Below are positions 1,233 through 6,946 of a DNA stretch of 36,236 nt, one piece after another. Each line of letters starts with the position of its first letter. Position 1 is the first letter of the stretch. The notes under the pieces are model-generated. The model was not told the DNA's origin, ran no database searches, and saw only the letters and a program-made list of their open reading frames with translations. This DNA comes from a virus, in IMG/VR virus record IMGVR_UViG_3300032668_000070, positions 1 to 36,236 of that record. One strand, written 5' to 3'. A program made the position numbers and the translations under genes.

Positions 1233-1377
1233 GAGCACAAAACCAAAGCTGACCGCAGCCGAGCGCACGCAGAAGCTGCTGGCTTTCAAGCGCGGCTACT
1301 CACACAACTTCACGCTGAATGCAGTGCCGAGCAAGCCGGTGCACCGAGCAGTTGGCGCAATGAGGACTTCGGCATGA
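1225..1377 (+). CDS. Small hypothetical early protein (50 aa)
   Basis: An ATG at 1225 opens a 50-residue frame (MNKSTKPKLTAAERTQKLLA...) that ends in a TGA at 1375-1377. It is preceded by GAGGTAGGA, a good ribosome-binding site, and overlaps the stop of the preceding gene by eight bases. Such overlaps are characteristic of this operon and support real translation. The product is basic, with no recognisable motif or membrane segment. Confidence 0.45.
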   Translation: MNKSTKPKLTAAERTQKLLAFKRGYSHNFTLNAVPSKPVHRAVGAMRTSA

Positions 1378-1390
1378 GCCAAAAACAAAA

Positions 1391-1420
1391 CCCCGCAATG
1401 CATGAACAGGGCGGGGCTTC
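1391..1420 (+). terminator. Hairpin, weak terminator or attenuator candidate
   Basis: CCCCGC (1391-1396) pairs with GCGGGG (1411-1416), with CTTC after it and a run of As before it. It lies between the 50-aa gene and the ribosome-binding site of the helicase-methyltransferase gene. It lacks a strong T tract, so an mRNA-stability or attenuation role is as likely as termination. A similar hairpin precedes the gene at 8569. Confidence 0.3.
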
Positions 1421-1445
1421 TATCAGTAACCAAGGGGAGTTAGTT

Positions 1446-3695
1446 ATGAATGTACAGATTTTAGACGACTACGAGGCTTTTGTAAAAGGGAAAGCGCCTG
1501 AGGACGTGGAGTCCGGCTTTGAGCCGTCCGACTTGGGCGATCACTTGTTCGACTTTCAGGCGTCAATCGTGGAGTGGGCTTGCAAGCGTGGGCGCGCCGC
1601 CATCTTCGCTGATACCGGCCTGGGCAAGACTGCCATGCAGACCGAATGGGCGCGCCAGGTATCCGAACACACTGGCGGCATGGTCCTGATCGCCGCTCCT
1701 CTGTGCGTGGCCCAGCAGACCGTTGAAGAGGCCGCGAAGTTCGGCATTCACATCCAATACTGCCGCAGCCCTGCAGACATAAAAGGCGGCACTCAGATCG
1801 TGATCACCAATTACGAAATGATCGAAAAGTTCGACCCGGCTGAGTTTGCGGGCATCGTGCTTGATGAGTCCAGCATTCTGAAGAGCCACACCAGCAAGAC
1901 CCGTGCCCTGATCATTGAAATGTTTCAGCGCACGCCTTATCGCCTGAGTTGTACCGCAACCCCATCACCCAATGACCACATGGAGCTTGGCAATCAAGCC
2001 GAATTCCTGGGCGTGATGACTGGCACTGAAATGCTGGCCATGTTTTTTGTGCACGACGGCGGCGACACATCGCAATGGCGACTCAAGGGCCACGGGAAGA
2101 CTCGATTCTGGGAGTGGATGGCCACATGGGCAATCTGCATCCGCAATCCGGCAGACCTTGGCTTTGATGGCACCCGCTACAACTTGCCTGGTCTGAAAAT
2201 GCATGAGCACGTCGTCGAGGCATCCGAGCCTCTGGATGGCCAACTGTTCGCCGGAATCGCCCAGACATTGACCGAGCGCCGCGATGCGAAGCGCAAGAGC
2301 ATGGCCGAGCGCATCGCACTGACTGCCGACCTGGTGAACAGCCATAACCGCCCTGCAATCGTCTGGTGCCACCTGAATGACGAATCCAAAGCCCTGACTG
2401 CCGCCATCCCTGACGCCATCGAAGTGACAGGCTCAATGACCGCTGATGAGAAGGAAACGGCAATCATGGCATTCACACATGGATCGCGCCGGGTGCTGGT
2501 TTCCAAGGCATCCATCTGCGGATTTGGCATGAACTGGCAGCACTGTCACGACATGGTATTTGCCGGACTGGATGACTCATACGAGTCCTTTTATCAGGCC
2601 ATTCGCCGGTGCCACCGTTTCGGCCAGGCTCACATTGTTGACGTTCACCTCGTCTCTTCCGAATCCGAAGGTGCGGTAAAGGCCAATCTGGAGCGCAAGC
2701 AAGCGCAGGCCGATGACATGGCGCAGTCGATGGTTTCTCACATGCGCGAACTGACAAAACAAAAAATCAAAGGGCTGGCCATGGAAAAGAGTGAGTACAA
2801 GCGCGAAGTGGCGCAGGGCGATGGTTGGACTGTGCACCTGGGCGATTGCGTGGATGTGGCCCGTGACCTGCCAGACGCATCCATTGACTTCAGCGTGTTT
2901 AGCCCGCCGTTTGCTTCGCTCTACACCTACTCCAACAGCGACCGCGACATGGGCAACTGCAAGGACTATGCCGAGTTTTACGGCCAGTTCAAGTTTCTGA
3001 TTGCCGAGTTGTTCCGCATCACTAAGCCGGGTCGCTTGTTGTCATTCCATTGCATGAATCTGCAAACGTCAAAATTCAGGGATGGCGTGATAGGACTGCA
3101 TGACTTCCGTGGCGAGTTGACGCGCATGTTTACCGCTGCCGGTTGGATTTTTCATTCTGAGGTCTGCATCTGGAAAGACCCAGTGACGGCCATGCAGCGT
3201 ACAAAGGCTTTGGGCCTGCTGCACAAGACCATTCGCAAAGACTCCAGCATGAGCCGCCAGGGCATCCCTGACTACTTGGTGACCATGCGCAAGCCCGGCG
3301 AGAACGCAGAGCACATCAGCCACACACACGAGACATTCCCCGTTGACAAGTGGCAGCGCTACGCAAGCCCCGTCTGGATGGACATAAACCCGACTCGCAC
3401 GCTGCAATTCAAGACAGCTCGGGAATCAGACGATGAGCGCCACATCTGCCCGCTGCAGCTTGATGTGATCGAACGTGCCATGGAGTTGTGGAGCAACCCC
3501 GGCGATGTGGTTTTCTCGCCGTTCACCGGGATCGGATCTGAGGGTTATGTCTCGATCGAAATGGGACGCAAGTTCATTGGGGCTGAGTTGAAGCGCTCTT
3601 ACTGGGAGTTGGCAAAGCGCAACCTGAGCCAAGCCAGGGAGATCAAGGCATCCGGCCTGTTCAATGAAGAAGAACTTGAAGCGGAGGCCGCATGA
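1446..3695 (+). CDS. SNF2-like helicase fused to beta-class DNA methyltransferase
   Basis: This 749-residue protein has two enzymatic halves. Residues about 30-420 form a superfamily 2 helicase: Walker A DTGLGKT at 56-62, motif II DESS at 140-143, a TATP motif near 166-169, and motif VI QAIRRCHRFGQ at 384-394. Residues about 450-740 form an amino-methyltransferase with SPPF (motif IV) at 486-489 and FSPFTGIGSEG (motif I) at 690-700. This permuted order marks the beta class, which methylates N4-cytosine or N6-adenine. No nuclease domain is visible, so it probably modifies phage DNA or counters restriction rather than cutting. Start: the frame is open from an ATG at 1374 overlapping the previous stop, but 1446 has a strong ribosome-binding site (AAGGGGAG) just after the hairpin at 1391-1416 and is preferred. 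An internal start at 2781 could yield the methyltransferase alone. Confidence 0.8.
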   Translation: MNVQILDDYEAFVKGKAPEDVESGFEPSDLGDHLFDFQASIVEWACKRGRAAIFADTGLGKTAMQTEWARQVSEHTGGMVLIAAPLCVAQQTVEEAAKFGIHIQYCRSPADIKGGTQIVITNYEMIEKFDPAEFAGIVLDESSILKSHTSKTRALIIEMFQRTPYRLSCTATPSPNDHMELGNQAEFLGVMTGTEMLAMFFVHDGGDTSQWRLKGHGKTRFWEWMATWAICIRNPADLGFDGTRYNLPGLKMHEHVVEASEPLDGQLFAGIAQTLTERRDAKRKSMAERIALTADLVNSHNRPAIVWCHLNDESKALTAAIPDAIEVTGSMTADEKETAIMAFTHGSRRVLVSKASICGFGMNWQHCHDMVFAGLDDSYESFYQAIRRCHRFGQAHIVDVHLVSSESEGAVKANLERKQAQADDMAQSMVSHMRELTKQKIKGLAMEKSEYKREVAQGDGWTVHLGDCVDVARDLPDASIDFSVFSPPFASLYTYSNSDRDMGNCKDYAEFYGQFKFLIAELFRITKPGRLLSFHCMNLQTSKFRDGVIGLHDFRGELTRMFTAAGWIFHSEVCIWKDPVTAMQRTKALGLLHKTIRKDSSMSRQGIPDYLVTMRKPGENAEHISHTHETFPVDKWQRYASPVWMDINPTRTLQFKTARESDDERHICPLQLDVIERAMELWSNPGDVVFSPFTGIGSEGYVSIEMGRKFIGAELKRSYWELAKRNLSQAREIKASGLFNEEELEAEAA
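2770..2783 (+). promoter_or_regulatory. Candidate internal ribosome-binding site and start for a stand-alone methyltransferase
   Basis: AAGGG (2770-2774) lies six bases before an in-frame ATG at 2781, precisely at the junction between the helicase and methyltransferase halves. Translation from here would give a product of about 304 residues starting MEKSEYKREV and containing all the methyltransferase motifs. The sequence permits this start; use is inferred. Confidence 0.35.
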
Positions 3696-6056: not shown

Positions 6057-6221
6057 ATGACGCTATTCGACAAACATCTGCAGTGGCTGATCGAGCTATG
6101 CCAACACGGCCCAGCCTGGCGGGAATACGCATGGAGCCGGGCCAAGGAGTTGGAATCGGAGTATCCCGGCATGAAGGCGGCGTTGACGAAGGCGGTGAAG
6201 CATGGGGAGGCAAATGAATGA
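6057..6221 (+). CDS. Small hypothetical early protein (54 aa)
   Basis: The ATG at 6057, three bases after the helicase stop, opens a frame of 54 residues (MTLFDKHLQWLIELCQHG...) ending in a TGA at 6219-6221. That stop overlaps an ATG of the C5 methyltransferase gene (ATGA). The protein is rich in Glu, Lys and aromatic residues and looks mostly helical. A competing frame from the ATG at 6053 has the same length but gives a Gly/Arg-rich sequence that looks less protein-like. No function can be assigned. Confidence 0.45.
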   Translation: MTLFDKHLQWLIELCQHGPAWREYAWSRAKELESEYPGMKAALTKAVKHGEANE

Positions 6222-6946
6222 GCTGGCACTATTTGCAGGGGGGGGGTGGCAGCATTTTGGCCGCAGAGTTGCTTGGATGGCGCACCGTCTGTGCTGTTGA
6301 GCTTGATCCCGGAGCGCGTCAAATTGTTATCGACCGCCAGCGCGATGGAGTCATCAGCGCATTTCCCATCTGGGATGACGTTTCAACGTTCGATGGCAAG
6401 CCGTGGGCAGGAGCCGTGGATGTTGTCACTGGAGGATTCCCATGCCAAGACATTAGCCAGTGCGGAGCAGGCAAAGGCATTGAAGGAGAGCGCAGCGGAC
6501 TCTGGAAGCAGATGGCAAGAATCATTTGCGAAGTACGACCCGCTTGCGTTGTTGTGGAAAACAGCCCAATGCTCACTTCTAGAGGACTCGGGGTTGTCCT
6601 TGGAGACTTGGCCCGAATGGGGTTCGATGCGAAGTGGGGAGTGTTTCGAGCTTCATCCATTGGAGCAGCCCACCATCGAGCCAGGCTTTTCTTGGTTGCT
6701 AACGCCTACGGCTCAAAGCTGGAAGGCTTGGACTTTCCGCAATCCATTGGCTTTGATTCGAAAGAATCACGCAGACGGCAATCTGCAAGAGCAATTGATG
6801 CGGCTCTACCAGCGGATGACTACTCCTCGATGCCAAGAAATCCTGATGCAGTGGCCCGAGGGATGGACGGACTCAAAACCACTGGCAACGGGTGGGTTCC
6901 AGCAGTGGCAGCAAGAGCAATACAAATGCTTGGGGGCTTGAAATGA
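6218..6946 (+). CDS. C5-cytosine DNA methyltransferase with displaced N-terminus
   Basis: The 242-residue frame contains the catalytic PCQ loop GGFPCQDIS (Cys76), an ENS motif (VVENSPML), a GAAHHRARLFLVA segment and a C-terminal TGNGWVPAVAA motif, all standard for m5C methyltransferases. It transfers a methyl group from AdoMet to cytosine C5, probably to protect phage DNA. The N-terminus is odd. Starting four bases earlier, at the ATG at 6214, gives the family-typical MNELALFAGGG, but in a different frame that stops at about 6301. The two frames meet in a run of nine Gs (6238-6246); eight Gs would join them. As it stands, the ATG at 6218 gives MSWHYLQGGGG and lacks part of AdoMet motif I. GGAGG (6206-6210) is spaced better for 6218 than for 6214. 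A second coding frame overlaps most of this gene. Confidence 0.8.
   Translation: MSWHYLQGGGGSILAAELLGWRTVCAVELDPGARQIVIDRQRDGVISAFPIWDDVSTFDGKPWAGAVDVVTGGFPCQDISQCGAGKGIEGERSGLWKQMARIICEVRPACVVVENSPMLTSRGLGVVLGDLARMGFDAKWGVFRASSIGAAHHRARLFLVANAYGSKLEGLDFPQSIGFDSKESRRRQSARAIDAALPADDYSSMPRNPDAVARGMDGLKTTGNGWVPAVAARAIQMLGGLK
6238..6246 (+). repeat. Nine-base G homopolymer at the methyltransferase 5' end
   Basis: Nine consecutive Gs encode the Gly-rich AdoMet-binding loop. Upstream of the run the family-typical sequence is in the frame of 6214; downstream it is in the frame of 6218. The tract could change length by replication slippage, cause transcriptional slippage, or be an assembly error. 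Confidence 0.8.
6393..6941 (+). CDS. Overlapping-frame phage protein nested in the C5 methyltransferase gene
   Basis: In another frame the same DNA encodes about 182 residues beginning MASRGQEPWMLSLEDSHAKT and ending at a TGA at 6939-6941. The sequence looks like a known phage protein rather than a shadow frame. It contains SFAKYDPLALLWKTAQCSL, then LETWPEWGSMRSGECFE, LTPTAQSWKAW and WPEGWTDSKPLATGGFQQW, in the order seen in proteins often found with phage methyltransferases (patterns such as W-P-x-W/S-G-M-x-R-x-G and W-P-x-G-W-T). In other phages such a segment is usually a separate or fused partner; a target-recognition role is plausible but unproven. The frame is open from 6246, and the true start could be 6246, 6345, 6375 or 6393, none with a strong ribosome-binding site. 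Confidence 0.55.
   Translation: MASRGQEPWMLSLEDSHAKTLASAEQAKALKESAADSGSRWQESFAKYDPLALLWKTAQCSLLEDSGLSLETWPEWGSMRSGECFELHPLEQPTIEPGFSWLLTPTAQSWKAWTFRNPLALIRKNHADGNLQEQLMRLYQRMTTPRCQEILMQWPEGWTDSKPLATGGFQQWQQEQYKCLGA

Follow-up and report, generated by a model that had tools for sequence, protein, structure and literature searches.

An overlapping +1 frame in a phage m5C methyltransferase gene is under selection across phages and probably encodes a motif IX-bearing partner subunit

In the methyltransferase M.EcoHK31I, the beta open reading frame is nested within the alpha gene but read in a different frame. As reported previously, the larger subunit of M.EcoHK31I (YGGCCR; with M.EaeI) carries motifs I–VIII, motif X and a predicted recognition domain, with motif IX placed on the smaller polypeptide, and the C5 methyltransferase M.AquI is split before motifs IX–X (PMC3404938). 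In addition, an insertion in the ShiLan methylase hides an HNH endonuclease, out of frame (PMC11855218). This endonuclease, too, is encoded out of frame within the methylase gene of a phage, but it belongs to a homing insertion and is unrelated to the +1 frame described here.

The window analysed here is the whole 36,236-nucleotide stretch of IMG/VR virus record IMGVR_UViG_3300032668_000070. This 36-kb record has terminase, portal, capsid and tail-sheath genes, and its m5C methyltransferase open reading frame lies between genes for a DnaB-like helicase and a Holliday-junction resolvase. We refer to the methyltransferase frame (frame 2; 6218–6946, plus strand) as alpha and to the +1 frame (frame 0; 6246–6941, plus strand) as beta; the latter is open from GTG 6246 through 6941. 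An earlier note on this DNA had held that two forward frames both look genuine, and protein searches with both translations bore this out by finding homologues for each. Alpha matches PF00145 (E = 1.2e-26) and PHROG 363 (E = 8e-52) and carries the features of a C5 cytosine methyltransferase, namely motif I, the catalytic PCQ, ENV/ENS and motif X. Motif IV, PCQ with the catalytic cysteine, lies at 6440–6448 on the plus strand, and motif VI, VEN, at 6554–6562 on the same strand, where the same DNA gives WKT of beta in +1. Beta matches PHROG 1008 (E = 1.8e-13), as do 69 of 69 aligned homologues, and Pfam and NCBIfam searches with beta gave no credible match. The motifs named for the second frame in the earlier note, WKTAQCSL, LETWPEWGSMRSG, LLTPTAQSWKAW and WPEGWTDSKPL, were all found in that order; beta as delimited here comprises WKTAQ, ETWPEWGSMRSG, LTPTAQ and a segment resembling motif IX. 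The frame was thus where the note had put it, but its proposed start at 6393 turned out to be an internal ATG of the frame open from GTG 6246. Elsewhere in the window (1374–3695) lies a 773-aa protein, the N-terminal part of which matches DNA helicase families and residues 465–765 of which match DNA methyltransferase families; it is a predicted helicase–methyltransferase fusion in the same phage.

Alignment of alpha with the ordinary methyltransferase profile by hhalign revealed that alpha covers columns 87–261 (motifs I–VIII) and 384–413 (motif X, LKTTGNGWVPAVAARAIQMLG, 6872–6934, plus strand, overlapping the end of beta), that it leaves the columns from 261 to 384 unmatched and that it lacks motif IX. 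Only ~50 aa separate motifs VIII and X, which apparently leaves no room for a recognition domain; alpha does not combine a recognition domain and motif IX in one chain, as a single-chain C5 methyltransferase does. When position was left unconstrained, the best match of beta to the same profile was motif IX, directly before motif X, in the segment TTPRCQEILMQWPEGWTDSKPL (6819–6884, plus strand). Around alpha residues 207–213, within this segment, the conservation of beta (E..LMGWP) exceeds that of alpha. The window therefore shares with M.EcoHK31I the placement of motifs I–VIII and X on alpha and of motif IX on beta, and judged by this layout it would work like M.EcoHK31I. It may differ in that the larger subunit of M.EcoHK31I holds the predicted recognition domain, whereas the alpha spacer appears too short for one and the variable-length region is read in beta as well. 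It also differs in its neighbours, which are replication genes, with no restriction enzyme gene seen adjoining alpha/beta, and in the phage-wide occurrence of the nested form. Since the likeness is one of layout and the recognition domain may sit elsewhere, we do not file the locus as a member of the M.EcoHK31I type. M.AquI resembles the window in having catalytic motifs and motif IX on separate polypeptides, but its beta carries both IX and X, whereas motif X of the window is on alpha.

The direct match of beta to motif IX is weak (E = 0.06), and intermediate forms therefore matter for the link between beta and methyltransferases. The alpha of Streptomyces prophages and phage Heather stops after motif VIII; the corresponding beta remains in +1 with an overlap of ~380 nt, extends ~550 nt further and carries motifs IX and X. 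The Streptomyces-prophage relatives (L105, L177–L196) thus match the layout of M.AquI, but with the ~380-nt overlap. Their beta aligns with ordinary methyltransferases over IX–X (E = 1.5e-4) and, along 200 columns, with the window-type beta (E = 1.6e-28). In single-chain forms (ShiLan gp70, B22 gp50 and 14 viral loci), motifs I–VIII and the C-terminal segment of beta with IX and X are joined in one frame, and the beta HMM matches these forms with E about 1e-9 to 1e-14. One of them was modelled (pTM 0.71, with a poor central region), and Foldseek aligned the model with M.HhaI over most of its length (E = 3e-15). The model of isolated beta was poor (pLDDT 55) and gave no fold match, which counts against the subunit reading but would be expected if beta folds only with alpha. 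In the alignment, the stretch from LPTP to motif IX varies strongly in length among beta proteins, which is as expected of a recognition domain. The variable region of several beta proteins (L105, L121, L136 and others) contains repeated L(L/W)PTPxAxD modules of ~25–35 aa in differing copy number, and these could be serial recognition modules. ShiLan-type actinophage methyltransferases share with the window the beta C-terminal segment with motif IX, fused to I–VIII, but consist of one polypeptide; in L214–L228, L209 (ShiLan) and L210 (B22), where the recognition segment is already fused, all that was seen of beta in +1 was a short open remnant (YDPDTSSW..FSETWP.SGM..LLPTP). The methyltransferase of L210 (Propionibacterium phage B22 gp50) seems to be interrupted by an intein-like insertion ending ...VVHN, just before the catalytic CQD.

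Because of the motif IX match, the split phage forms with IX and X, and the fused single-chain forms, we read beta as a partner domain, and most likely as the small domain that the alpha enzyme lacks; the same comparisons support the earlier suggestion that the second protein is a possible recognition partner of the methyltransferase. Beta might instead be a real overlapping protein but no subunit of the enzyme, such as a regulator or an anti-restriction protein born by overprinting. The frame-specific selection described below shows a protein, not which function it has, the N-terminal part of beta (WKTSQ, ETWPRSGM) has no counterpart in ordinary methyltransferases, and a simple split model leaves the N-terminal +1 remnant in the single-chain actinophage enzymes unaccounted for. 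We nevertheless consider a non-subunit role unlikely, as the C-terminal half of beta corresponds to the methyltransferase small domain by three routes and alpha is without motif IX in the loci examined.

The start region of the window contains a Shine–Dalgarno-like GGGGAGG (6204–6210, plus strand), separated by 3 nt from ATG 6214 and by 7 nt from ATG 6218. ATG 6214–6216 on the plus strand is the expected alpha start (MNELALFAGGGG...), and ATG 6218–6220, 4 nt 3' of it on the same strand, is the conserved beta start. In this contig the alpha start is out of frame past a G9 tract and reads into the third frame, and ATG 6218 reads into alpha (MSWHYLQGGGG). The G9 tract (6238–6246, plus strand) lies in the motif I glycine loop, is the only G/C run of at least 8 in the window and occupies 8 positions in relatives; where 8 G are present, the alpha reading continues as MNELALFAGGGGSILA. 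Because G9 has one G more than in the relatives, the printed methyltransferase open reading frame begins at the conserved ATG of beta. The G9 recurs in a second contig, which is identical to the window over 5.7 kb and may represent the same virus population; no other G-tract length of this phage turned up in a DNA-pattern scan, which returned only this one identical contig. Phase variation, slippage and assembly error may all fit the G9 of the window. A possible internal beta start (6409–6422, plus strand) consists of AGGAG, a 6-nt spacer and ATG 6420 (MLSLEDSHAKT...), and in the alignment the equivalent codon is not ATG in every relative.

Among the relatives, AAT/ATG at the beta start is kept in all 69 loci with the NEL start, and the beta ATG directly follows an in-frame TGA/TAA in 67 of the 69. 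Of 69 relatives, 58 have a Shine–Dalgarno-like motif 5' of the beta ATG, and a single such sequence could serve both starts. The alpha asparagine at the NEL start is always encoded by AAT and never by AAC, although AAT makes up 43% of the asparagine codons in the same genes, and ATG is therefore retained in the beta frame. The own start of alpha in the 69 loci is ATG (42), GTG (10) or TTG (8), and is absent at that place in the remaining 9.

G runs of at least 8 occur in 16 of 80 alpha/beta genes, as against two G/C runs in 304 kb of flanking DNA. Tracts of 8–11 G (window 6238–6246, L017–L020, L007, L011, L013, L015, L037, L046 and L060) are strongly enriched in these genes, their varying lengths exchange the frames, and they are possibly phase-variation or slippage sites. 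In L017–L020, a G9 at a second tract joins alpha residues 1–84 to beta; L007, L011 and L013 have G10 there. Both the abundance of such runs and the junction in L017–L020 would agree with a beta made only as a frameshift product on the alpha N-terminus, by ribosomal or transcriptional slippage at G tracts, and never as a free protein. This is very unlikely, since most relatives are without such a tract and yet keep the beta ATG, and several phages carry beta annotated as a separate gene.

Selection on the beta frame was assessed by synonymous shuffling. For the window alone, 3.9 stops are expected in the +1 frame, and the probability of its staying open is P = 0.0028. In a set of ~76 related viral loci, with alpha identity from 46% up and GC content of 39–69%, a single +1 stop was observed against ~365 expected (alpha residues 8–238), and the depletion holds also at 39–45% GC; the +2 frame of the same loci showed no stop depletion. 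Nearly all of these loci can be reached by alpha sequence alone; most had been fetched in this way and a minority via beta search, so they were not selected by beta. As a control, 30 ordinary single-chain methyltransferases gave 353 +1 stops against 338 expected and no significant match to beta. Beta identity exceeded that of the shuffles at every distance, reaching 0.307 versus 0.221 at alpha identity 0.35–0.5 and 0.588 versus 0.334 at 0.7–0.85. Identity in the +2 frame was also above the shuffles by a smaller margin, and this excess is the share due to common ancestry. At single sites, the codons of alpha Ala132 give proline in beta in 100% (31% expected), those of Val113 give tryptophan in 92% (38% expected) and those of Pro117 give glutamine in 89% (36% expected). 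The beta methionine opposite alpha Asp210 is present in 100%, though Asp210 itself is conserved in just 70%. Both frames are under selection, and beta dictates synonymous codons in alpha. The conservation beyond that of a random shadow frame, which the earlier note had claimed, is thus confirmed, with strong frame-specific constraint and homologues that are more than unconstrained shadow translations. That the +1 frame is open and alike merely through the methyltransferase protein and its codon use, as the beta motifs opposite alpha motifs (GGFPCQD/EDFPAKT, VEN/WKT) and the frequent chance openness of +1 frames in high-GC genomes might suggest, is rejected at the family level by the shuffles and the control set and is scarcely credible, given that stops are depleted at low GC as well and synonymous sites follow beta.

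A search with the beta consensus returned 331 phage records, with hosts including Mycobacterium, Paenibacillus, Gordonia, Streptomyces, Vibrio, Porphyromonas, Synechococcus and others, as well as 25 plasmids, one of them archaeal, and PHROG 1008 was found in 22 of 398 genomes of one bacterial phylum. No stand-alone beta was found in the genomes searched for it, and at every locus examined alpha lies in the overlapping frame. Annotation of the pair varies, and in the phage records often just one of the frames is annotated. Alpha alone is annotated in Salmonella phage S9-5; in Vibrio phage 1.291.O (L103) the beta frame alone is annotated, as 'hypothetical', and in the deposited annotation of Microcystis phage Mwe-JY08 (L108) there is likewise only beta, the catalytic frame being missed in both. 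Both frames are annotated in Firecracker, Twister, Heather and Diva. The PHROG 1008 'DNA methyltransferase' proteins, including Firecracker gp5, Twister gp78, Heather gp36 and Diva gp50 ('g49 internal gene'), have the same beta family or layout, and in these four phage records the gene was named one by one. A search of the available literature found no paper on the phage-wide nested pair, its breadth or its motif division; the two-polypeptide enzyme is already known, and what is new here is the breadth of the nested form across phages.

Taken together, we estimate a probability of roughly 0.85 that the locus is an orphan phage m5C methyltransferase split into alpha, the catalytic subunit, and beta, the subunit with recognition function and motif IX, encoded by the same DNA and jointly active. 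In this model, alpha would fold as the catalytic domain with SAM binding, the PCQ nucleophile, ENS/ENV and motif X, and beta would supply the DNA-recognition small domain with motif IX; translation of beta, its binding to alpha and its reading of the target sequence are inferred. A single Shine–Dalgarno sequence would precede both start codons, which in the closest relatives overlap as (A/G/T)TGAATGAG and are 4 nt apart, and we therefore propose that both subunits are made from one mRNA. Alpha and beta would then combine as the active enzyme, whose marking of phage DNA would probably serve against host restriction. The extra G in this contig shifts both starts, which speaks against the model; unless the contig represents a phase-off variant, beta would have to be made from an internal start (e.g. 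ATG 6420) or through slippage. More tentatively, and at somewhat short of even odds, the locus may stand for a class of phage m5C methyltransferases that is large and old and for the most part unannotated. In this class, both heterodimer subunits would occupy the same nucleotides with overlapping starts, the recognition segment would move between frames in nested, split and fused forms, and G tracts would exchange the frames by slippage or as phase switches.

It is rare for two overlapping genes to encode, as they appear to here, parts of a single enzyme that interact. Since fused, split and nested forms are all present in living phages, the origin of the long overlap is traceable and testable. 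Recoding the catalytic frame for expression would silently destroy the partner protein, and because many records hold one frame only, the protein likely bearing the specificity of many phage methyltransferases is absent from their annotation.
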